IMG/VR virus record: IMGVR_UViG_3300050132_000038
Span: 154,862-218,861 of that record
Direction: 5' to 3' (one strand)
Length of the DNA: 64,000 nt
Source: a virus
Positions within the stretch are counted from its first letter, which is position 1. Each line of letters starts with the position of its first letter. Shown here piece after piece: positions 4,815-64,000 of the stretch. The notes below the pieces were generated by a model, which saw only the letters and a list, made by a program, of their open reading frames with translations, searched no databases and was not told where the DNA came from. The position numbers and the translations under genes are program-made.

Positions 4815-5045
4815 ATGAAAGCGCAACTTATGTTAGACGAAGATGAAGTATCTATCGAGGATCTTATAGAGAAGTATAAGCTGTCTATAGACTACACTCA
4901 CAGAGACGGCGAGCTGCTTCCCTTCTGGACAGCTAATCTAATTAGTCCTCAAGGGGTTACTCTGGCTATAGCGGCAGGTAATACTCTTCGCGATGCCGTT
5001 GAGGGTATGGTAGGTATTATAGGCAGTATGGACCTTACCGTTTAG
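4815..5045 (+). CDS. Hypothetical acidic protein
   Basis: A 76-residue protein with an acidic N-terminus and a mixed alpha/beta pattern; no family recognised. TGAGG precedes the ATG at suitable spacing. It sits in the packaging operon between two co-directional genes. Confidence 0.55.
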   Translation: MKAQLMLDEDEVSIEDLIEKYKLSIDYTHRDGELLPFWTANLISPQGVTLAIAAGNTLRDAVEGMVGIIGSMDLTV

Positions 5046-5058
5046 GAATATAGAACGT

Positions 5059-5511
5059 ATGTTGGCGCATAAATTAAAGACCGCTGTGGAGAAATACTTC
5101 CTGAAGAAGCGGATGGCCGTAACCTTCGAGCTAGGGTTATGCAGGGGCGGAAGGCTACGCGCTGACGTACTCGCTGTATCCATGAGCCGCAAGATTATCT
5201 GTATAGAAACGAAGAGTGGGGTCCAGGATTTTCGTAGAGACTCCAAGTGGCCTAAGTACAAGGACTTCTGTGACCAGTTGTACTTTGCTGTTGACCATGA
5301 AACATACCTGAAAATTAAATCAGAGATCCCAAAGGGTATAGGCATCCTAGTTGTTAAGGAAGTACCTAACCGCACAAGCACTCGCACACTACTAAAGGCG
5401 TCCGTAGTGCAGAAAGCCAAGTGGGAACCTATAGATGATGAACTTAGAATGGACTTGTTTGTTCGCATGGTGTTCCGCACTGCTGACTCCAATAGATACA
5501 GGAAGAATTAA
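5059..5511 (+). CDS. MmcB-like PD-(D/E)XK nuclease
   Basis: 150-residue protein that matches the MmcB/DUF2 type of DNA-repair-associated nuclease fold. D36 lies in LRADVLAV, the ExK motif is IETKS (E50, K52), and the following DFRRDSKWPKYKDFCD stretch is characteristic of MmcB proteins (D-F-R-x-D-x-K-W-x-x-Y-x-D-F-C-D). MmcB in alphaproteobacteria is linked to mutagenic repair. Here it precedes the portal gene with no gap (its TAA abuts the portal ATG), so it may trim or repair DNA at packaging. Family call is good; role is inference. Confidence 0.75.
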   Translation: MLAHKLKTAVEKYFLKKRMAVTFELGLCRGGRLRADVLAVSMSRKIICIETKSGVQDFRRDSKWPKYKDFCDQLYFAVDHETYLKIKSEIPKGIGILVVKEVPNRTSTRTLLKASVVQKAKWEPIDDELRMDLFVRMVFRTADSNRYRKN

Positions 5512-7386
5512 ATGTTTGCCAGATCTCAAATCGTAGGTGTCAACGGAGGGGCTATCAGTTATGCTAACGGGGGCGACAGCGCTCCCTTAGCATCGACTAC
5601 AACCCGCGGATTCGCCCAGAAGCAAAAGATTACGGCTAGTGTGGGCGCAGGGTACGGCTCTGGTGGTGGTTCCTCCATGAGTATTAACTCATTCTACCAA
5701 TCAAGTTATCAATATTACCTTACCGGAATCCTCCCAGCCGATCCTCACCTTATAGACACATCGACACTGGCGCTGTTTTATCGTGACATCTATCTGTTCG
5801 ACAGTACAGCTGGTTCAGCTGTAGATATCCAATCTAGCTTTCCATTCTCTGGGTGGGAACTACGTGGTCTACCAGAAGACGAACTTCAACCGTTCAACAC
5901 TGCATTAGAGCGTTTGAATCTTCAAACCATGATGCCGTTTCTTAGTACTGCCTACCTTACTGACGGCTTTTTCTGCGGCTCTCTAATCTTTGATCCACGA
6001 TCTAAAGAGTTCATCGACACGTTAATTCACGATGCGCTGTCAGTAGCTGCCATTCCCTCCCCGTTCTTCAACATTGATCCGACAATCAACGTTCGGGTGG
6101 GTCAAGCAGCACAGCAGTTCATGCACGATACGTCAGAGTATGCACGGCGTTACCTGGATGCAATGCCGAAGGACTTCATCGAGATGCTGAAGAGCGGAGC
6201 ATTTACCCTAGACCCTGTTACCACGCTATTCATTCCTCGGCGTAGTACAACAGATCGGGCGTACACCTCATGGCTACATCGTATTCTTCCAATATACATG
6301 ATTGAGAAGACGCTGTTCCGTGGAACACTAGTTGAAGCACAGCGTCGCCAACGTGCTATGACTCATGTTACAGCAGGTGATGATACGTGGACGCCTAGCC
6401 CCCAGGAGCTGAATGCCTTAATTGGTGCATTCCAACAGGCTGAGATGGATCCTATGGGTGGTTGGATTGCTACTAGAGGTTCTGTTGCATCTAATGATTT
6501 GAGACCTGGAGGTGACTTCTGGAAGTTTACAGATATGGCGGATGTGCTTGTTCCCTACAAGCTGCGGGCTCTGGGTATCAGTGAAGGCTTCTTGTCCGGA
6601 GATGCCAGCTATGGGGTGGCCGAGTCTGCTTACTCTACTTTCCTAGAGAGCATGAATTCCTACCGGACTGGTTTAACTGAGAGAGTATTCTACTCCAAAC
6701 TGTTCCCATTGATTGCAGTAGTAAATGATCTGTACAAAGACGGAGCTGATAAGGCGAAGGCAGGTAAGATCGTAGAGTTCTTATTCAACAAGAGTAATCG
6801 TAGTAACCTGAAGATGCCTGAACTCCATTGGCACAAGGAGCTGGAAGCTAAGGGCGAAGAGAACATGGCAGAACTCTTGGAGACTGCTAGTCAGAAGGGC
6901 GTGCCAATTCCACTAAAGATGTGGATGGCAGCAGCGAAAATTGATCCTGATTTGCTCCTACGTGAGCTATCGGAAGACGCGGCTCTACGCAAGGAGCTAG
7001 AGCAATTCACTGGTAAAGATACTTCACATGAAGGGGAGGAAGAAAGCCATGAATTTGATGATGACTACCAAGGTGCAGGAGACGTTCGTAATGAAACTAC
7101 TGCAGGACTAGGTAAGATTATTCGCGGCCTACCTACACAATCTTTAGTACACGGTCATCCTTCGTACAAGCAACCACTGTTGGCCCGTGAATTCGGAGAC
7201 TCAGGTGATAACTTTGCACTTACCAAGACGGGTAAGATTAAGTATGTTCCTAACAGTAGGAACTTAAACAAGCAGATGAATGATAACATCTTGAAGATTG
7301 CAGCTAAGGCCGATAAGGATCCTAACTATCGTGCAGAGTTGAAGAAACGTAATCAAGAAAAACTTGGGCGCACGACCCTTCGTTAA
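5512..7386 (+). CDS. Portal protein
   Basis: Predicted to form the dodecameric ring at the unique capsid vertex through which TerL drives DNA. The 624-residue length and long helical regions fit myophage portals (T4 gp20 is 524). Residues about 70-130 (LALFYRDIYLFDSTAGSAVD, then FPFSGWELRG) match the start of the gp20-like core, and residues 290-370 contain the wing/stem region. A highly acidic stretch follows near residues 500-520 and the C-terminus is lysine-rich. Location after TerL and before tail genes supports the call. Confidence 0.82.
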   Translation: MFARSQIVGVNGGAISYANGGDSAPLASTTTRGFAQKQKITASVGAGYGSGGGSSMSINSFYQSSYQYYLTGILPADPHLIDTSTLALFYRDIYLFDSTAGSAVDIQSSFPFSGWELRGLPEDELQPFNTALERLNLQTMMPFLSTAYLTDGFFCGSLIFDPRSKEFIDTLIHDALSVAAIPSPFFNIDPTINVRVGQAAQQFMHDTSEYARRYLDAMPKDFIEMLKSGAFTLDPVTTLFIPRRSTTDRAYTSWLHRILPIYMIEKTLFRGTLVEAQRRQRAMTHVTAGDDTWTPSPQELNALIGAFQQAEMDPMGGWIATRGSVASNDLRPGGDFWKFTDMADVLVPYKLRALGISEGFLSGDASYGVAESAYSTFLESMNSYRTGLTERVFYSKLFPLIAVVNDLYKDGADKAKAGKIVEFLFNKSNRSNLKMPELHWHKELEAKGEENMAELLETASQKGVPIPLKMWMAAAKIDPDLLLRELSEDAALRKELEQFTGKDTSHEGEEESHEFDDDYQGAGDVRNETTAGLGKIIRGLPTQSLVHGHPSYKQPLLAREFGDSGDNFALTKTGKIKYVPNSRNLNKQMNDNILKIAAKADKDPNYRAELKKRNQEKLGRTTLR

Positions 7387-7396
7387 GGAGTTCACT

Positions 7397-7669
7397 ATGT
7401 ACAGCTTTCTAACAGTAGCACGTAGGGTAGACGTAGAGGCCGCAATCAAATCTGAGGACGTGTACTCTTTCTTCACCTTCAAAGGTAGCAAGCCAGTTGC
7501 CCTGAACTTCCGAGGCAAAGAGGAGTATATCGAGAAGGGCGATAAGTTTGGTGTACGTAAGTCCGCTAACGGTAAGCAGATTCGGCTAATCCGCCCGGGT
7601 GCGGAGACTCGCGTGTTTACGCTTACGATGGATCAGGCGAATGCGTTGGCCCGAGGTATAAAGAAATGA
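7397..7669 (+). CDS. Hypothetical protein
   Basis: About 90 residues, beta-rich and basic, ending ALARGIKK. The ATG at 7397 follows AAGGAG at ideal distance; an in-frame ATG at 7364 lies inside the portal gene and is less likely. The central KSEDVYSFFTFKGSKPV segment suggests a small barrel, but no family is recognised. It is co-directional with the portal gene. Confidence 0.6.
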   Translation: MYSFLTVARRVDVEAAIKSEDVYSFFTFKGSKPVALNFRGKEEYIEKGDKFGVRKSANGKQIRLIRPGAETRVFTLTMDQANALARGIKK

Positions 7670-7681
7670 AGGAGAAGTCTC

Positions 7682-8098
7682 ATGAGCTCTACAGTTGTTA
7701 GTCTCCAACCCAAGAAAGGATTTAAGCCTCAGTACTTTGGTGTAGTCTTCGACGCATACAACCCCCAGGTAGAAGCGCAGATGATGCGTGACTGCTTGGC
7801 AATGCAGAGGGTACTTCAAAATCATAAGCGCGAGCTAGTTATTGTGTGTGAGTCTGAAGCCCCTGACCGTATGCTCCGGGGTTTAAGTATTCGTAGAGTA
7901 CCTACGCCTACGCTAACAAAGTCCTGGGCGATGTACAAGACGAAAGCCGACTGGATGCCCGAACCAGAAGGTGCTGACGTGGTTGTACCCCGTGATCTGT
8001 ATCAACCACTGAAGAAGAATACACTTCGAGTATTAGACGAGGCACACACTAATGGGTACTATTTACCGCCTTTGGAAACATTCCTTAGGGCCGCTTGA
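7682..8098 (+). CDS. Exon 1 of an intron-split hypothetical gene
   Basis: The reading frame gives 138 residues with a plausible Rossmann-like alpha/beta pattern (VVFDAYNP, LVIVCESEA) but no recognised family. It appears to stop at TGA 8096-8098, yet that stop lies at the start of a group I intron. If the intron is removed with its 5' boundary near 8095 and 3' boundary near 8388, the frame continues into 8389-8499 and adds about 36 residues (exon 2). AAGGAGAAG precedes the ATG. The protein is real on codon use and RBS; the splice junctions are estimated, not proven. Confidence 0.7.
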   Translation: MSSTVVSLQPKKGFKPQYFGVVFDAYNPQVEAQMMRDCLAMQRVLQNHKRELVIVCESEAPDRMLRGLSIRRVPTPTLTKSWAMYKTKADWMPEPEGADVVVPRDLYQPLKKNTLRVLDEAHTNGYYLPPLETFLRAA

Positions 8099-8388
8099 CC
8101 GTGAGGTCATGTGATAAGGTTTTGAATTGTCTGGAAACTCCTTAGAGCCGTGTAGACCACAACGTAGCTATGAAATATGGGCAAGCGTGAGGGTTAAGAA
8201 CTATACGGATTGGGCAACCAGCAGCGAAGTCCCGAATAGGGAAACGTTCAACGACTAGAGCGCAAGCTCGTACCCTCAAGTGAGGGGAAGCGGAACCCGT
8301 CTCTGTGAGACGAAGATATAGTCTGACCGTCTAGGGAAATCCTAGAGCAGTTCATAAGAGAACGCTTGAGTACTAACGACACTCAGGG
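8096..8388 (+). ncRNA. Group IA self-splicing intron, about 293 bases, without internal ORF
   Basis: Core helices can be paired by eye. P3 is TGAGGGT 8188-8194 with ACCCTCA 8272-8278. P7 is GACTA 8253-8257 with TAGTC 8319-8323, in the classic context AAGATATAGTCTG. Between P7 and P3 is a GAGC-GCAA-GCTC hairpin (8257-8268) typical of the P7.1 insertion in IA introns. P9 is CTAGG...CCTAG (8331-8345) around a GAAA loop. J3/4-P4 reads TTGGGCAACCAGCAGCGAAG. A TGACC-GTGA-GGTCA hairpin lies at the 5' end, and a 7-bp hairpin (8365-8387) near the 3' end. Boundaries are set by reading-frame continuity and the final G; they may be off by some bases. Confidence 0.85.
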
Positions 8389-8499
8389 AACACAGTGCAA
8401 GGAAGATTGAGTCCAGAAACAGTTTCACTACTTAGACCAGCACCTAATGGTTTTTCTGTAGGCTACGGTGATAACTGGTTGAGCGCGCTCTATAGTTAG
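8389..8499 (+). CDS. Exon 2 of the intron-split gene
   Basis: An open frame starting at about 8389 encodes NTVQGRLSPETVSLLRPAPN and continues to a TAG at 8497-8499, with protein-like composition and no start codon or RBS of its own. Joined to exon 1 ending LETFLRAA it gives a protein of roughly 174 residues. No other gene explains this stretch. The join is inferred. Confidence 0.55.
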   Translation, partial: NTVQGRLSPETVSLLRPAPNGFSVGYGDNWLSALYS

Positions 8500-8503
8500 G
8501 GTC

Positions 8504-8614
8504 GAACACCCTACAATTTCACAGTGAGCATAAAGCGAAAAGGTTTAGCGGCCCTGTCATGCCAATACATGACTAGCTTTATGTCTCACTTCTTAAACCT
8601 ATTGGGGTTGCCAA
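8504..8614 (+). promoter_or_regulatory. Conserved structured leader of the homing endonuclease gene (copy 1)
   Basis: About 110 bases upstream of the GIY-YIG gene are homologous to the leader at 16437-16550. GTGAGCATAAAGC (8524-8536) pairs with GCTTTATGTCTCAC (8576-8589), with one bulged base. Inside is GTCATG (8556-8561) with CATGAC (8568-8573); copy 2 has a different but equally complementary pair here. The only Shine-Dalgarno-like element is GGGG just before the start. A near-match to the AATTTCATA motif (AATTTCACA) lies at its 5' end. Likely regulates or insulates endonuclease expression. Confidence 0.6.
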
Positions 8615-16550: not shown

Positions 16551-17612
16551 ATGTCCACGAACTACCAGGAGCTCGCTGAGCTCTACTTCCACGAGTACGA
16601 CCAAAATTCCCTTGAAGACCCGTATGAAAAGAAGCGGCGCAAAGTCTTTAAAGAATTAGCAGCCGCTATAATAACCTCGGAATTCCCAGAGCTAGAAGCT
16701 CAGATCGCAATAGCTGCCTGGAACTTAACCGCAGAGTTAGCCGTTACTGGTAACAAAGGTAAAGGACGTAGACTTAAGTTAGATAAAATCTTCTACGTGT
16801 ACGTTCTTATGGATCCCCGTAAGCCAGGCCAGTGGATTATAGATCTCCCAGGTGGGAAAATTATTGAGCTTCCTTTCCTACCTTTCTACGTAGGAAAAGG
16901 GTACGGTGGTAGAATGAAGGCACACGCCCGACACGCCAGAGCTAAGCCCACTCCTGTAGCAGGTGAGCATAAAGCTAACACTATTCGTAGTCTTCATCGC
17001 CTTGGCCTAGAACCTATAGAGAAACGAGTCAGTGGATTCTCTATAGAGGCCGTAGCACTAATGAAGGAAGTGGGGTTAGTGAAAGCTGTTGGTCGTGGTA
17101 GGAATGGACCACTTACTAATCTTAGTGACGCCGGGGAGGGCCTAAGCGGCTACAAGCCCACTGAGGAAACTAAAGCTAAAATAGCTGCTAAGCTAGATCA
17201 GATCGTAGCCAAAAGAAAAGCTACCTATGCGGGCAAGAGTCAAGAAGAGTTAGACGCTATCAACGAGAAGAATAGCCTAGCGCATCGTGGTAAGAAACAG
17301 AGTGTTGAAACACTTGAGAAGCGAGTAGCACAATTACGTGGTACCACCCGCCCGACGGAAGTAGGTACTAAAATTAGTGCTTCTAAGATGGGGCATGAGA
17401 CCTCAGTAGAAACACGGGCAAAGCAGAGCGCTGCAAAGAAAGGTCGACCGGCGCTCAATAAGGGTACTACTCATACTGAGGAAACTAAAGCTAAGATGCG
17501 CGCAGCTAAAGCTGCTCAGCCTATAAAAATTTGTGAGCACTGTGGCACAGAAAGTAAAGGTACTGCCTTTACTAGATGGCATGGTGACAACTGTAAGTTT
17601 AAGAAGGATTAG
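16551..17612 (+). CDS. GIY-YIG homing endonuclease (copy 2)
   Basis: 353 residues. GIY half FYVYVLMDPRK (81-91), YIG half FYVGKGYGGRM (112-122). The helical linker contains modular DNA-binding repeats of NUMOD3 type (GYKPTEETKAKIAAK and a related THTEETKAKMRAAK near the end). The C-terminus has CEHCGTESKG...HGDNCKFKK, a zinc-finger-like module also found in copy 1. The gene sits between a displaced copy of a gene start and the intact gene at 17615, ending two bases before it. Function as a mobile nuclease is well supported. Confidence 0.88.
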   Translation: MSTNYQELAELYFHEYDQNSLEDPYEKKRRKVFKELAAAIITSEFPELEAQIAIAAWNLTAELAVTGNKGKGRRLKLDKIFYVYVLMDPRKPGQWIIDLPGGKIIELPFLPFYVGKGYGGRMKAHARHARAKPTPVAGEHKANTIRSLHRLGLEPIEKRVSGFSIEAVALMKEVGLVKAVGRGRNGPLTNLSDAGEGLSGYKPTEETKAKIAAKLDQIVAKRKATYAGKSQEELDAINEKNSLAHRGKKQSVETLEKRVAQLRGTTRPTEVGTKISASKMGHETSVETRAKQSAAKKGRPALNKGTTHTEETKAKMRAAKAAQPIKICEHCGTESKGTAFTRWHGDNCKFKKD

Positions 17613-23086: not shown

Positions 23087-24352
23087 ATGACGACACCACT
23101 TCCACCATCATTATACGAGTACACACTCTCACCTCCCACTACTGATAGCAAGGAGAATATTAGGCTAGGCTACAGGACCCCAAGATCCCTGTTGGCTCCT
23201 CCGTACATCTACCAAAATCCTTATTTTGTAGCCCTGCTGGATGCGGTAGACTATGTGTTCGAGACCACCGTCGATATTCCAACAGAAGTTTTAGGTGACC
23301 TACGTAAGATGTGGGTCACTAATCCGATGTTGGAAAACAATCAGATTGCTAACTCAGAGTTGATCCCCTTCGAGGCATGGTCGCAACCTGAGTGGGAGAT
23401 TTTGGTTAAGCAGGTCAATATGTTGGGCATGAAGTTGCAGTCAGCTTCGGTATTGACCAACGATAACTATCAGTCTATAGCTAGGTGGGTTGGTCAATAC
23501 TGGTTTGGTAAGGGGACCTCAGCATTCATTAATTTTATAAATTATTGCCTGAGTTCTAGCCTAGCTATAGAACAGCTGTGGACCGCAGACTACATTACGT
23601 TTTACCCTACAGGAGATTCCCGCATAGGAACTCCAATATGGGAGGGAGGCACTTGGTATCCTACTCCTAATGTAGCAATCACGGCTTCGGGTGGTCTACA
23701 ATCACTAGATGTGCAGACGTTGACCACATTCTTCTACGAGATTGCGAATTACAATATAGTGTTGCATGACATAGCACTAACGTTTGATATTCCAATCACT
23801 ACCACACCTACGGGTACCAATGCCCCTGTAGTAGCGTTAGGATTGAATATGGTTCAAGCGGTGCCGATCTCTAACTTGTACAGCTACGGTGCGAACTCTC
23901 CAGAGCTTACCATAACAGACGAAGTCCCCACCGCAGCGTGGACGACCAATCCAGGTAATATTGACCTTACTGGTGTGTATATGCTGGCAGCCCCTACGTC
24001 ATGGATTCAAGATACTATGGGGCGCGTCTTTCCGCTGTATGACGGCCCACAGCAAGTACCTGTACTAGAGACAGAACTCCCTACTACCCTATGTGGGCCC
24101 GTAGTAGCTGGAGCAACCTCTGTTATATATGGCCCTGTTATGTGGCAGGCTATTCCGACCGGCACGTATAGCGGCGGACGCCTTCCGGTGTTCAGCACAA
24201 TGCCTGTAGCAAAGACCGCAGACCTAGGAGAGGCCCCTACTAATCTAGTAGGGTTCCCCACATGCCTATTAGTTAATCCTACAGGCTTTGCTGAGTTTGT
24301 GCTAGGCTCCGGTTTATACAGTCCGTATTGGACAGGTTCCCCAGTACTCTAA
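23087..24352 (+). CDS. Baseplate wedge protein (gpI/gp7-like)
   Basis: 423 residues following the gpJ-like gene. Residues 20-165 are helical with alternating aromatic positions (PYIYQNPYFVALLDAVDYVF, then NMLGMKLQSASVL, WVGQYWFGKGTSAFINF), the pattern of the tail protein I family, which holds the fibre attachment site. The C-terminal 200 residues are beta-rich and phage specific. A TTG at 23081 overlaps the preceding stop; the ATG at 23087 is preferred although neither has a strong RBS. Confidence 0.65.
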   Translation: MTTPLPPSLYEYTLSPPTTDSKENIRLGYRTPRSLLAPPYIYQNPYFVALLDAVDYVFETTVDIPTEVLGDLRKMWVTNPMLENNQIANSELIPFEAWSQPEWEILVKQVNMLGMKLQSASVLTNDNYQSIARWVGQYWFGKGTSAFINFINYCLSSSLAIEQLWTADYITFYPTGDSRIGTPIWEGGTWYPTPNVAITASGGLQSLDVQTLTTFFYEIANYNIVLHDIALTFDIPITTTPTGTNAPVVALGLNMVQAVPISNLYSYGANSPELTITDEVPTAAWTTNPGNIDLTGVYMLAAPTSWIQDTMGRVFPLYDGPQQVPVLETELPTTLCGPVVAGATSVIYGPVMWQAIPTGTYSGGRLPVFSTMPVAKTADLGEAPTNLVGFPTCLLVNPTGFAEFVLGSGLYSPYWTGSPVL

Positions 24353-24364
24353 AAGAGAAATCAG

Positions 24365-25480
24365 ATGGCATACGAACTTCCCACCTTCTATGATTCAATG
24401 GCCCAAGTAATCCGATCTATGGATACTGGAGATCAGATTCCCCCTATGCAGGTGCCCCTTAGTGCCACCATGGGAAACATTCTACAGATCCTTAGTGATG
24501 GCCTATACGTGGGGTCAACCTTAGCACTCCCTTCTGTGGTGTACATCAACAATGTAACTGGTGTAGACGCTCCCGGTAACGGCACTATGGCTATGCCATA
24601 CGCTACAATCGACTACGCTGTGTCTCAGTTGACAATGGCTTCGGTCAATCACCAGTTATCGACCTCCACCGTATTGGCATTGCAGGCAGGGCAGACCTTC
24701 CCTATAGTAAACGACATTAATCTGTATGGAGGAACCTTAACGTTTGCGTTCTACGGTGATATGAACTACGGTGCCTACTCTAGTCCGCCAGTAGGTACGG
24801 GTGCTATCCCTGCGATAATGACTGATCTCATGCGCCCGGTCCTTGTCCCTGCGGTGTCTCTGACGAGCACTAACCTTTGGCACATGTCTGGGGTTAATCT
24901 GTACGGAGGTAATATCTCACTGTTAGGTGTAGAGCTTGAGCTACCTATGGCACCCTCTGGTCCTTCTATCTCGTTGTACTCAGATGCAGCAGACTTTGTA
25001 CGTTCAATGAACTATGCAACGCCTGGGTACCTAGATTTGCAAGGGGCTATAGTAAACCAGCAGGATCCAACTGCCTTCTGGGGAGTTCTAGGCGTCCACG
25101 CTAGGTCTACCTCATTCTCCTTGATTCAATACGCATCGCAATTTCAGGTAGCAGGGATGCTTATCGACTTGGCTAATATGTCGACCAGTCCTGAGCTGAT
25201 GGCGCGTCCGTACTTCATTAAGTTCTACCCGGACTTTATTGGTAGCAATCAGCAGCAGGGTGTTCTGTATGATACAGCAATTACGGCAACGTCTGCCTCA
25301 GGTCTGCTTAAAGTTTTGTGGGCGGATACACAGAGCTATACAATTGAGAGCACTAAGACTAACCTCATGTCCTTCCCAATTGCTTATGATCTAGTGTACG
25401 GCCTCCGCAATTATTTTTATGGAATTACGTATGATTCACTAATGCGTCCAGTGAACGTAATCCCCAGTCGAACAATCTAA
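24365..25480 (+). CDS. Tail fibre or baseplate-attached beta-helix protein
   Basis: 371 residues, beta-rich throughout. The segment VYINNVTGVDAPGNGTMAMP followed by YATIDYAVSQL is the start of a right-handed beta-helix of the kind used in tail fibres and spikes (GxDxxGxGTxxxPYxTI). Two repeated phrases INLYGGTLT and VNLYGGNIS support stacked coils. It sits between the gpI-like wedge and the collar-bearing fibre, so it is probably a receptor-binding or short fibre protein. Confidence 0.65.
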   Translation: MAYELPTFYDSMAQVIRSMDTGDQIPPMQVPLSATMGNILQILSDGLYVGSTLALPSVVYINNVTGVDAPGNGTMAMPYATIDYAVSQLTMASVNHQLSTSTVLALQAGQTFPIVNDINLYGGTLTFAFYGDMNYGAYSSPPVGTGAIPAIMTDLMRPVLVPAVSLTSTNLWHMSGVNLYGGNISLLGVELELPMAPSGPSISLYSDAADFVRSMNYATPGYLDLQGAIVNQQDPTAFWGVLGVHARSTSFSLIQYASQFQVAGMLIDLANMSTSPELMARPYFIKFYPDFIGSNQQQGVLYDTAITATSASGLLKVLWADTQSYTIESTKTNLMSFPIAYDLVYGLRNYFYGITYDSLMRPVNVIPSRTI

Positions 25481-58134: not shown

Positions 58135-59475
58135 ATGCTCAAGATTGTAAGCCCCTCAGCCGAGTTAGCCGTATTGAGAGGGATGACCCACAAGAACAAG
58201 AAGATAGCCGGAGCACTTCTCTCCACTACAGATAGTTCGTACTTCTACAGTGAAGAATCTATAGAGGTCTACGAGGCTATCAAGAAGCACATGCAAGAGT
58301 CGGGGGAGTCCCCGACATATAGATTATTAATTGAAGACCCAGATCTTTCTGAGGAGGCACGATCCCATTTCCGGTCCTCCGTCGCGACAGTACAAACCAC
58401 AGCCGATGCAGACAAGGCAGCACGCATACTAAACAAGTATCGTCAGCGCCGAGGTATGTATAACTTAGCAGCACATATCAACTCGAAGATGCAGGGATCT
58501 CGAGTTGACCTTGACGGGCTACTAGAGGAAACAGCAACAGCGTTCAACGTGATCCGCTCGAAGAAGACTACTTCTGAGGCATTCTTGCATTTTGGTCGTA
58601 ACAACAATGCCGACGCGGTAATTAAGTCGTTACTGTATGATGACAATTCTGAGAACGTCATACCTACGGGTATTAAAGCATTCGACACTGTAAGTGGGGG
58701 ATTTGCCAGAGGATCACTTGTGACCTTGGGTGCTAACTCAGGAGGAGGCAAATCAGCAGTTGCCTCCGCCATGGCAGTGAAGATGGCGAGTTTAGGGTAT
58801 AAGGTACTGCTAGTGCCTCTTGAAATGTCAGAGCGAGAGATGTCCGGTCGCATCATGGCGAACATCACTAAGATGAATTTGTCAAAGATCCTACTTGGAC
58901 GGTTAGCCAGCGGAGAGAAGGATCTAGCATATAAACGCTATAAAAGGTGGAAGACCCGAGTTAAAGACGCTGGTGGTCGATACACTATATTCAAGCCGAA
59001 AGAGGATATGACTATTGAGGAGATCATGGCCTCAATAAGTGCATACACGGTCGATGTAGTTATCATCGACTATATATCACTACTTAAGGGGGTGGACGGC
59101 GATGACATGTGGCAAGCACTTGGTGCCGTAGCCAGATACGCAAAGATCAATGCCGAGGTAGAGAACCGGGTTTCGATCTTACTTTGTCAGGTGTCTGATG
59201 AGGGGAAGATCCGTTATGCCCGAGCGATCTCCGAGCACTCTAGTAATAGCTGGATCTGGATCAGCTCGAAAGAGTCAAAAGAGACCGGGATCACTAAGAT
59301 CGAGCAGCCTAAGTCTCGAAACTCTCTGTCCTTCCCCTTCTCTATTAAGATTGACTTCGAGCACATGCGTACTGAGGATGTTGCCCTAGAAGACAACAGC
59401 GGCCTAGGTGAGGTCAAGCCTGAGCAGGGTAAGAAGAAGCGCACAGACATTCCCAATTTAGCGAGCGATATATAG
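58135..59475 (+). CDS. Replicative DNA helicase (DnaB/gp41-like)
   Basis: 446 residues; hexameric 5'-3' helicase at the fork. The N-terminal domain (to about 150) is helical. The RecA-type core has FDTVSGGFARGSLVTLGA, Walker A GANSGGGKSA (199-208), LLVPLEMSEREM, Walker B VVIIDYISLLKG (308-319), and SILLCQVSDEGKIRYAR followed by a serine-rich loop. The residues match phage gp41 and DnaB rather than RecA. Upstream genes include a probable loader. AGCCAAGAG precedes the ATG. Confidence 0.9.
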   Translation: MLKIVSPSAELAVLRGMTHKNKKIAGALLSTTDSSYFYSEESIEVYEAIKKHMQESGESPTYRLLIEDPDLSEEARSHFRSSVATVQTTADADKAARILNKYRQRRGMYNLAAHINSKMQGSRVDLDGLLEETATAFNVIRSKKTTSEAFLHFGRNNNADAVIKSLLYDDNSENVIPTGIKAFDTVSGGFARGSLVTLGANSGGGKSAVASAMAVKMASLGYKVLLVPLEMSEREMSGRIMANITKMNLSKILLGRLASGEKDLAYKRYKRWKTRVKDAGGRYTIFKPKEDMTIEEIMASISAYTVDVVIIDYISLLKGVDGDDMWQALGAVARYAKINAEVENRVSILLCQVSDEGKIRYARAISEHSSNSWIWISSKESKETGITKIEQPKSRNSLSFPFSIKIDFEHMRTEDVALEDNSGLGEVKPEQGKKKRTDIPNLASDI

Positions 59476-61605: not shown

Positions 61606-61615
61606 CAAAGTAGAA

Positions 61616-61643
61616 GAGGGACACCAATTGCTCAGTGTCCCTC
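61616..61643. terminator. Bidirectional terminator between convergent operons
   Basis: GAGGGACAC (61616-61624) and GTGTCCCTC (61635-61643) form a perfect 9-bp stem with a 10-base loop. On the plus side it is followed by GATTTACTCTTTT. It divides the replication block from the minus-strand accessory operon. Confidence 0.75.
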
Positions 61644-61646
61644 GAT

Positions 61647-61883
61647 TTACTCTTTTCCGCCTTCTGGTTTACCGCCTTCCTTCTTACGCTTCACTTGCTC
61701 TTTGGTACGTTCTAGTTGTTCCTGCGTATCCAAGATAGACTTCTTGTCCCCAAAGCTTTGATCTTCAGTTGGCTTCTCCTTCTGAATTTCCAAACGCCTC
61801 TTCAAAGATTCCTCTGCGGGATCTTTCTGTGCTTCACCCTCGGCGGCTAACAACCGTGCTGCTGCATTCAACTTGATTTTCAT
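61647..61883 (-). CDS. Small tagged protein, lysine- and glutamate-rich
   Basis: 78 residues from the second ATG (61883), which AAGG upstream serves better than the ATG at 61892 overlapping the preceding stop. N-terminus MKIKLNAAARLLAAEGEAQK is the clearest copy of the shared tag, with A-A-E at 13-15. The rest is a charged low-complexity helix rich in K and E. If the tag is cut off during head maturation, a small hydrophilic internal peptide would remain in the capsid. Function unknown. Confidence 0.6.
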   Translation of the reverse strand: MKIKLNAAARLLAAEGEAQKDPAEESLKRRLEIQKEKPTEDQSFGDKKSILDTQEQLERTKEQVKRKKEGGKPEGGKE

Positions 61884-61888
61884 TTCAG

Positions 61889-62287
61889 TCATCCTAAGGT
61901 TTGAATAAACTGTTGTACGTCGTCCGTAGAAGTCGGCATGTACAGATACGAGTGATCGTCATCTACACAACATACAAGAGGACAGCGCTGCCCTGAACCA
62001 TACCCTAGAACAATACCACTAGGGCAGGTCTTGAGACATTCAATAGACGACACATCCACCTCTGCTACTTCAACGTAGCCTTCTGCCTGCAACCTCTTGT
62101 ATAGTGCTTCGTAGCTATCCTGATCGAACTGCACGCAGCACTCTTCCATGTTATCGAAGAAGCCTTTGTCTTCTAGCTTCTGCCACTTCACAGAATCCAA
62201 ACATTTAATGAGATCGGTGAACTCATCTAGTGCTTGGCTATCAACAGCTGCCCTAAGTCGTGATGCTGCGTGTAGTTTGACCTTCAT
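61889..62287 (-). CDS. Tagged cysteine-rich protein
   Basis: 132 residues. N-terminus MKVKLHAASRLRAAVDSQAL carries the shared tag. The remainder has nine cysteines or so, including CC pairs at about 47-48 and 112-113, and a SSIECLKTCPSG segment. No family recognised; metal binding or disulfides are possible. AAGGA precedes the ATG and a promoter-like motif lies 20 bases upstream. Confidence 0.6.
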   Translation of the reverse strand: MKVKLHAASRLRAAVDSQALDEFTDLIKCLDSVKWQKLEDKGFFDNMEECCVQFDQDSYEALYKRLQAEGYVEVAEVDVSSIECLKTCPSGIVLGYGSGQRCPLVCCVDDDHSYLYMPTSTDDVQQFIQTLG

Positions 62288-62307: not shown

Positions 62308-62316
62308 TATGAAATT
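62308..62316 (-). promoter_or_regulatory. Candidate promoter motif AATTTCATA in the accessory operon
   Basis: Minus-strand copy overlapping the stop codon of the papain-like protease gene and lying 20 bases before the tagged protein at 62287. It could give an internal promoter. Confidence 0.4.
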
Positions 62317-63037
62317 AGGATACGCTCTCAATGGCGTACATCCCATGAGCCAAGCTAGGACTCAGTACGTAGGCAAACGGCATCCAGCAGTAACCATTGA
62401 TCCCCCAATCAGGTCCCCAGCTGTTACGGATTAGAAACATCTGCTTCGCCAAGTCGTAGCCTACTATACACACGCAATGGCCACCTAGCATTTCCTCCGT
62501 AGAGTTCGGCATAGGCACAATACCAGAGGCCGCTACCTCTTGCGATTCAAACGCGGGGTACACAAGGAACCCTAATACTACTGGATAGCCATTAGACAGG
62601 GGGGTCATCACAGAGGTTTGATCCTGGGCTACACGCGAATACTTTAACGCCTTACGTTTAGTTGCATCGGCGTAGGCAGCATCTGAGGGCTTGGTGTAGA
62701 GGTCATCCTTTGAATACGGCCACAAGGATAGCTCACAGGCCCCGTAGGTCAGAAGGACGTTTATTCCATCCTCTACGAAGGCCCCGTCATCTGAAGCTAC
62801 AGAGCCGTTTAGGACTCGTTCATTGTAGTACACAAACTGCTGAGACAGAGAGATCGTAGAGTTGTGCTGTACGTTTTCTAGGTACTCCATTGCACTGATA
62901 ACGGCAAAGGCAACACAGCTACTCATATCACCCTGATTGGCTATGGGGCTACACTTCGGCCTCAAGTCTACTACAGACGGTAGGGAGGACTGGGTAATAC
63001 CCAGAGCGTATCTAGCGGGAACTGGTAGGTAGTTCAT
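62315..63037 (-). CDS. Papain-family (C1A) cysteine peptidase
   Basis: 240 residues from the second ATG (63037), which has GAGG upstream; an ATG at 63049 is possible. The papain catalytic set is complete: Q35 and C41 in NQGDMSSCVAFA, H187 in GGHCVCIVGYD and N205 in IRNSWGPDWGINGYCW. VVDLRPKCSPIANQG is the usual lead-in. There is no long inhibitory prodomain and no clear signal peptide. Papain-type enzymes are rare in tailed phages. It lies between tagged proteins and may act on host or viral targets, possibly after delivery with the DNA. Confidence 0.88.
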   Translation of the reverse strand: MNYLPVPARYALGITQSSLPSVVDLRPKCSPIANQGDMSSCVAFAVISAMEYLENVQHNSTISLSQQFVYYNERVLNGSVASDDGAFVEDGINVLLTYGACELSLWPYSKDDLYTKPSDAAYADATKRKALKYSRVAQDQTSVMTPLSNGYPVVLGFLVYPAFESQEVAASGIVPMPNSTEEMLGGHCVCIVGYDLAKQMFLIRNSWGPDWGINGYCWMPFAYVLSPSLAHGMYAIESVS

Positions 63038-63104
63038 TAGGAACCTCATTGAGTTCTAACGGGGTCAATGAGGCTAGGACTACAAGGTAGTCAAGGATAA
63101 CAGA

Positions 63105-63596
63105 TCAGTCGTACAGGCTAGACGGACGGACCTTCGACCGCTTCAGAGGCTTCTTCGGTGCAGGTTCAAACGTCGTAACCCTATAGTCTCCGTCGGACGT
63201 TTTCTTGATCGTTACAGAATGATCTCCCTTGCTGTAGTGCGTTCCGTCGGACCCCCAGTCCTCTTGCTCAAAGCCTTGTTTAATTAAATCTTTAGACATT
63301 GAGTCCACGGCTTTCTGATCGGTGTACCCCTCGCCAGAACGTTCACCATCCCGGACTACGTATTCCCCTAAGTCGATCTTGTGCTTCTTACCTAAATCGC
63401 CACTGAAGCTGGCGGCTGGCGTAGGCTTTATTGGTGCAGGTTTTGTAGGCACTGTCTTTACCGGAGCAGCCTTACCTCCACCCTTACCATACTTACTACC
63501 AGGATGCTCTTTGAGGTACTTCTGTTGACGTTCTTTAGGCCAGTCTTCAAAGCCTGACTCTACCAAACGGGCTGCGGCATTGAGTTGAATTTTCAT
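63105..63596 (-). CDS. Tagged protein with basic repeats
   Basis: 163 residues. N-terminus MKIQLNAAARLVESGFEDWP carries the shared tag but lacks A-A-E. It continues KERQQKYLKEHPGSKYGKGG, a W-x-x-x-x-Q-x-x-Y-L-x-x-H-P-x-S-K-Y phrase that I have seen as a recurrent element in phage proteins but cannot name. A proline/lysine/alanine linker follows (residues 45-70), then a small alpha/beta domain (VDSMSKDLIKQGFEQED, SVTIKKTSDGDYRVTTF). AAGGAAT precedes the ATG, six bases after the molybdenum-enzyme stop. Confidence 0.6.
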   Translation of the reverse strand: MKIQLNAAARLVESGFEDWPKERQQKYLKEHPGSKYGKGGGKAAPVKTVPTKPAPIKPTPAASFSGDLGKKHKIDLGEYVVRDGERSGEGYTDQKAVDSMSKDLIKQGFEQEDWGSDGTHYSKGDHSVTIKKTSDGDYRVTTFEPAPKKPLKRSKVRPSSLYD

Positions 63597-63601
63597 TTGG
63601 G

Positions 63602-64000
63602 CTATTCCTTAGGGAGTATAATTTTGTCCATCGTAATCGGAAGATCACGAACTCGTACACCAGTAGCATTGTAAACCGCGTTAGCAATGGCTGCTACTAT
63701 GCCAGTGATACCGATCTCACCGACACCACGAACACCCATCGAACTAATATGGGGATCGGGCTTGTTTAGAAACGTTATATCGAGATCACCTATATCCAAG
63801 TTAACCGGCACATGGTAGTCAGCTAGATTAGCATTAACGAAGTGCCCACAGTTGGTATCGAATATAGTCTCTTCTTCCAGTGCGGCACCAATGCCCCATG
63901 TTATGCCGCCCATCATCTGGGAGTGAGCAGTCTTCTGGTTTAATATACGACCTACATCATAGACGGCTACAACCCGTGGAATACAGATGGTCCCCAGATC
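63602..64000 (-). CDS. C-terminal part of molybdenum hydroxylase large subunit (xanthine dehydrogenase / aldehyde oxidase family)
   Basis: The frame is open to the edge, giving 132 residues of a longer protein whose start lies beyond 64000. The sequence follows the family's C-terminal domain: RVVAVYDVGRILNQKTAHSQ, then MMGGITWGIGAALEEETIFD, NADYHVP-type NLADYHVPVNLDIGDLDITF, and VRGVGEIGITGIVAAIANAV with the catalytic-type glutamate in GVGEIG, followed by YNATGVRVRDLPITMDKI. The enzyme family uses a molybdopterin cofactor with Fe-S and FAD partners to oxidise purines, aldehydes or aromatics. Codon use (ATA, TTA, GTA, CTA) resembles the phage genes next to it and the next gene starts six bases after its stop, so it looks resident. 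Partner subunits are outside the window. Confidence 0.88.
   Translation of the reverse strand, partial: DLGTICIPRVVAVYDVGRILNQKTAHSQMMGGITWGIGAALEEETIFDTNCGHFVNANLADYHVPVNLDIGDLDITFLNKPDPHISSMGVRGVGEIGITGIVAAIANAVYNATGVRVRDLPITMDKIILPKE

Follow-up and report, generated by a model that had tools for sequence, protein, structure and literature searches.

The question raised by this locus is whether a molybdenum hydroxylase gene read at the very end of a viral sequence belongs to a phage genome and, if so, which enzyme it encodes and how that enzyme would act. The DNA analysed, hereafter the window, is a stretch of 64,000 nucleotides forming the last 64 kb of a virus record of 218,861 bp (G000:C1:154862-218861); plain positions refer to the window and those prefixed G000:C1 to the record. 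An earlier note, made from the letters alone, had read the minus-strand frame at 63602-64000 as the C-terminal domain of a xanthine dehydrogenase/aldehyde oxidase-type molybdopterin subunit. This frame is real, comprising 132 aa with an open 5' end, and its family match is far above chance, with hits to PF20256 (MoCoBD_2, 8.6e-18) and NF041671 (PaoC C-terminus, 168.6 bits). The first 127 bp of the record are identical (100%) to the last 127 bp of the window, so that the gene cut at position 64000 can be read on from the record start. The rest of the subunit was found there with the frame continuous over the junction, giving a protein of 730 aa plus stop that extends from a GTG start at G000:C1:1921 to the stop at window position 63602. 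The FAD and 2Fe-2S subunits, which had only been guessed at, were both located 5' of this gene on the same strand:

63602..64000, minus strand: C-terminal 132 codons of a PaoC-like molybdopterin (Mo) subunit, in a continuous frame (Pfam/NCBIfam; PDB 5Y6Q, 5G5G/5G5H)
63874..64000, no strand assigned: direct terminal repeat of 127 bp inside the Mo gene, closing the record as a circle
G000:C1:128-1921, minus strand: remainder of the Mo subunit, at the record start, outside the window
G000:C1:1918-2892, minus strand: FAD subunit, 324 aa, upstream of the Mo gene, outside the window (FAD_binding_5, CO_deh_flav_C)
G000:C1:2893-3375, minus strand: subunit with two [2Fe-2S] clusters (Fe-S subunit), 160 aa, first gene of the operon, outside the window (Fer2, Fer2_2)

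The FAD and Mo genes overlap by 4 bp, and the gap between the Fe-S and FAD genes is 0 bp. The Fe-S subunit has the eight cluster cysteines (Cys 39, 44, 47, 59, 98, 101, 142 and 144), the FAD subunit carries a four-Cys [4Fe-4S] insert of the PaoB type (Cys 115, 126, 135 and 154), and the full Mo subunit contains the MoCoBD_1 (3.8e-56), MoCoBD_2 and hammerhead (Ald_Xan_dh_C) domains of Pfam. The family's catalytic glutamate, described earlier as intact within a GVGEIG motif, is indeed present, Glu693 of the phage protein aligning with the catalytic Glu692 of PaoC; the roles of this residue and of the cluster cysteines are those that we take to be established for the family. Where a column is conserved in 97% or more of the 82 bacterial homologues compared, the phage residue agrees at 93 of 96 positions in the Mo, 86 of 89 in the FAD and 52 of 53 in the Fe-S subunit, similar to left-out bacterial control lineages. 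Judged by these features, the three genes constitute a complete operon of the PaoABC type, in the order Fe-S, FAD, Mo.

Among NCBIfam models, PaoC scores highest for the Mo subunit, which it matches in two parts (502 and 169 bits against a cut-off of 1180), and PaoA for the Fe-S subunit (233 bits against 322). Since these models are the best and yet remain below their curated cut-offs, the enzyme is a relative of PaoABC rather than PaoABC itself. It shares with E. coli PaoABC (YagTSR; PDB 5G5G/5G5H) the subunit order, the four-Cys insert, the catalytic glutamate and an MRAPG motif, but lacks the twin-arginine (Tat) signal and a paoD gene, and its Mo subunit has Tyr at the position of PaoC Arg440 and Gly at that of Leu246. 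Its best structure match is the aldehyde oxidase PDB 5Y6Q (526.6 bits), with 5G5G/5G5H also among the best; 5Y6Q has the same TYP motif at the Arg440 position, although it is a bacterial enzyme and far from identical.

The record encodes a head protein, a head protease, a tail sheath and other phage proteins. The head protein is 75% identical to those of Burkholderia phages BcepSauron and BcepSaruman (Sarumanvirus) and 60% identical to that of Achromobacter phage Motura. On this protein, the order of virion genes and the N-terminal tags described below, the carrier is assigned to the BcepSauron/BcepSaruman group of jumbo phages. These two phages differ from it in giving no match to the operon (tblastn with the FAD subunit) and in having only small genes after gp074, their phrog_17573 homologue.

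One N-terminal tag, M(K/R)(I/V)(Q/K)LNAA(A/S)RL, is common to about 13 otherwise dissimilar ORFs, mostly in the virion module; it often continues with YLxEHPxSKYA and is also found in relatives, including BcepSauron. Besides the tagged genes listed below, it occurs at G000:C1:4649-4867, 4950-5558, 6117-6977, 16727-17023, 24321-24575 and other sites. A role in capsid targeting or in processing is conceivable.

The surroundings of the operon contain the following features:

58135..59475, plus strand: DnaB-like replicative helicase gene (PF03796, 4.7e-19; phrog_19, 3.1e-65) of the opposite module, a landmark of the insertion site
61614..61644, no strand assigned: hairpin where the cassette converges with the plus-strand module (about -20 kcal/mol for each strand)
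61647..62287, minus strand: two tagged genes (61889-62287 and 61647-61892), end of the cassette
62315..63049, minus strand: papain-like (C1) cysteine protease gene (PF00112, 1.1e-20), in the operon's cassette
63105..63596, minus strand: tagged phage gene (MKIQLNAAARL...), starting 5 bp past the Mo stop, downstream border of the operon; no match in Pfam and PHROG searches
G000:C1:3388-3419: hairpin (-22 kcal/mol, z -6) separating the Fe-S gene from the nearest tagged gene upstream of it, outside the window
G000:C1:3438-3788: tagged phage gene (MKIQLNAAARL), upstream border of the operon

BcepSauron and related viral contigs share the conserved gene order head protein, sheath, tube, phrog_17573 gene. 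Some relatives, L099 and L111 among them, have the opposite-strand helicase module directly after the phrog_17573 gene in convergent orientation, and in L096, L112 and L139 one or two tagged genes occupy this site. Here the site holds four tagged genes (one upstream and three downstream of the operon), the three-gene operon and the papain-like protease. By this comparison of gene orders, the operon is inserted where the end of the virion module meets the helicase module. The view that the hydroxylase is phage cargo is thus upheld: tagged phage genes flank it on either side, its codon use is phage-like, and the record is circular and from a known jumbo-phage lineage.

The further suggestion of the earlier note, that the enzyme shares an operon with phage genes, stands only in part. 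A tagged gene does start 5 bp from the Mo stop, on the same strand and with phage-like codons; however, a strong hairpin stands between the cassette and the final gene of the virion module upstream of it, which means that they are not simply one transcription unit. Strong hairpins frame the cassette at both ends, and several relatives have similar ones ending the virion module. The upstream hairpin ends 12 nt 5' of the Fe-S start, which leaves no space for a promoter between them. Expression must rely either on read-through or on a promoter within or before the hairpin. No clear Shine-Dalgarno sequence was found at the start of the Fe-S gene, and with the hairpin so close its expression may be low or conditional. 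A scan for consensus promoters was uninformative, giving 5 sites where 6.9 were expected.

A tree of the concatenated subunits (83 taxa, 1198 columns) places the phage operon next to a sister group of 25 Burkholderiaceae operons with a support of 100; support was 98 for the Burkholderiaceae group without the phage and 100 with Massilia added. These nearest relatives, paoABC-like operons of Caballeronia, Paraburkholderia and Trinickia, have identities to the phage proteins of 55-63% (Mo), 62-68% (FAD) and 63-71% (Fe-S). They differ from the phage operon in their Tat signal, in a MocA-like gene that adjoins the operon in L007, and in a GC content of 62-72%, compared with 49% for the phage operon and 48% for the window. 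The codon use of the phage operon correlates at 0.955 with phage late genes and at 0.374 with the Burkholderiales homologues; the phage set consisted of long ORFs, so these values are approximate. The relatives of the phage and the origin of the operon point to a host within Burkholderiales, an inference made without any direct host link.

A Tat signal is present on the Fe-S subunit in the Burkholderiaceae group, in Massilia and in the next relatives Nostoc, Hymenobacter and Sinorhizobium. The phage subunit has none: its first residues already belong to the mature domain, and between its ATG and the TAG and TGA stops that lie upstream in frame there is no start codon. The simplest account is that the signal was lost on the phage branch. 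PaoB and PaoC of E. coli lack export signals and leave the cytoplasm with PaoA, whose Tat signal exports the whole trimer; without Tat all three subunits are cytoplasmic (PMC4273604). As the phage Fe-S subunit lacks this signal, the enzyme should reside in the cytoplasm of the infected cell, unlike the periplasmic PaoABC. Because one signal peptide sets the location of the whole PaoABC trimer, its loss on the phage branch is a specific and testable sign of adaptation.

Searches of the whole phage record for XdhC (PF13478) and of the phage for a MocA-type protein (PF12804) gave no match, and the operon includes no PaoD-type chaperone gene, while XdhC was found in all seven of the searched bacterial genomes that carry the sister operon. 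The E. coli enzyme made without PaoD is inactive and without MCD (PMC2997495). Given this need for PaoD and the lack of XdhC and MocA in the phage, maturation must be supplied by the host. PaoABC acts on many kinds of aldehyde, with a preference for aromatic substrates, and makes no use of NAD+ (PMC3958847). Of the activities proposed in the earlier note, altered aldehyde chemistry therefore accords with the PaoABC-type assignment; altered purine chemistry is the weaker part, the purine-binding Glu being replaced by Gly, and nothing in the analysis supports nucleotide modification.

Our best guess is that the enzyme would serve cytoplasmic aldehyde oxidation during infection, its substrate, activity and benefit being inferred. 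In the proposed scenario, a BcepSauron-like jumbo phage would have acquired its paoABC-type operon in complete form from a bacterium of the Burkholderiales, and retained it until its composition became phage-like. The trimer would then be built in the cytoplasm, for which the host would supply molybdopterin-cytosine dinucleotide and an XdhC/PaoD-type chaperone. Its Mo site would hydroxylate aldehydes, possibly also aromatic heterocycles, and electrons would pass through two [2Fe-2S] clusters, a [4Fe-4S] cluster and FAD to a host acceptor, probably not NAD+. Clearing of reactive aldehydes, or a shift in redox balance, may favour phage production. This account as a whole, from capture of the operon to a cytoplasmic aldehyde-oxidising trimer that aids infection, is considered probable, with no expression, activity or host data behind it.

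Several other explanations have to be weighed against it. An assembly chimera, in which a bacterial operon was joined to a phage contig and falsely closed at a shared 127-mer, is suggested by the end of the record inside the Mo gene and by an overlap of typical assembler k-mer length, and reads are absent. It is nevertheless scarcely tenable, given the tagged phage genes at both outer borders, the phage-like GC content and codon use, a best bacterial Mo match of just 56-63% identity, and a gene order on both flanks of the site that is common to relatives. Misassembly is thus not supported by flanks, composition or gene order, and the host flank of a prophage is ruled out by phage genes on both sides within a closed circle. 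The same tagged neighbours and the nearby virion module could mean that the virion carries the enzyme into the cell at infection, as with the surrounding tagged internal proteins. We regard this as very improbable: none of the three subunits is tagged, the start of the Fe-S subunit is explained by homology, and the packaging function of the tag is itself a guess. That the operon is a passenger, recently acquired or decaying and without function for the phage, would fit its restriction to one known phage and its absence from all 43 related records, but is unlikely: codon use is fully ameliorated and, although the proteins differ from those of the nearest bacterium by about 40%, all three frames are open and retain their conserved columns to the degree seen in bacterial controls.

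The remaining alternatives concern the reaction rather than the operon. A true xanthine or hypoxanthine dehydrogenase, acting in purine salvage or in the release of nitrogen from host nucleotides during infection, would belong to the same superfamily; XdhA models match the truncated Mo subunit with 285 bits, and the Arg partner of the purine site (the Glu/Arg pair being E802/R880 in the bovine enzyme) is kept as Arg314 or its neighbour. The PaoC/PaoA models score better (502 versus 285 bits), however, the top structures are aldehyde oxidases, the position of the purine-binding Glu is Gly, and the FAD subunit has the PaoB-type four-Cys insert. Canonical xanthine oxidation is accordingly the less likely, disfavoured prediction, and we rate this explanation as improbable. 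A more speculative proposal, offered with little conviction, is that a periplasmic detoxification enzyme was moved to the cytoplasm for phage-host conflict, where it would remove or make reactive carbonyls or reactive oxygen, or oxidise modified bases or signalling molecules, the host Mo cofactor being limiting.

Other carriers were sought. Scans of viral contigs with single proteins and with the Mo alignment revealed no other virus with the operon, although near-identical records may have been outside their reach, and 43 records of the same phage group, many of them fragments, contained no FAD gene. Scans with the FAD and Fe-S alignments matched solely L012 and L013/L162. L013 is located at the edge of a Mu-like prophage beside bacterial genes, and the only INPHARED match to the FAD subunit, MT835675 (an unverified scaffold of about 74% GC), looks like bacterial DNA. 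In L012 (IMGVR_UViG_3300047494_000241), an 8.8-kb piece, paoAB-like genes at 6997-8612 (plus strand) still have the Tat signal and adjoin terminase, portal and head genes of a small phage; whether it represents a prophage flank or a second phage case is not resolved.

Records labelled as Acinetobacter phages (KT588073 and others; PHROGs 25833 and 23553) contain xanthine dehydrogenase genes of the same broad enzyme family, but these are about 25% identical, of the XdhA type, and located in records of 64-90 kb, none a jumbo phage. A single xanthine dehydrogenase match is listed in one table of virome enzymes (PMC6008428). No description of a complete PaoABC-type operon in a phage was found in the open-access literature, subscription papers being outside the search. 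What is new here is a known enzyme type that is carried by a phage and should have been relocated by the loss of its export signal, the annotated phage xanthine dehydrogenases being distant from it.

Where phages carry metabolic cargo, it is usually a single soluble enzyme of small size. An enzyme with three subunits that requires a Mo cofactor, three Fe-S clusters and FAD is among the most demanding for a phage to ask of its host and, if active, would bring the aldehyde chemistry of Burkholderiales within the reach of phages.

A homologue of the papain-like protease lies near the head gene in L146, and a 542-aa protein of the virion module of the phage itself (G000:C1:14268-15896, minus strand) contains an SprT-like metalloprotease domain.
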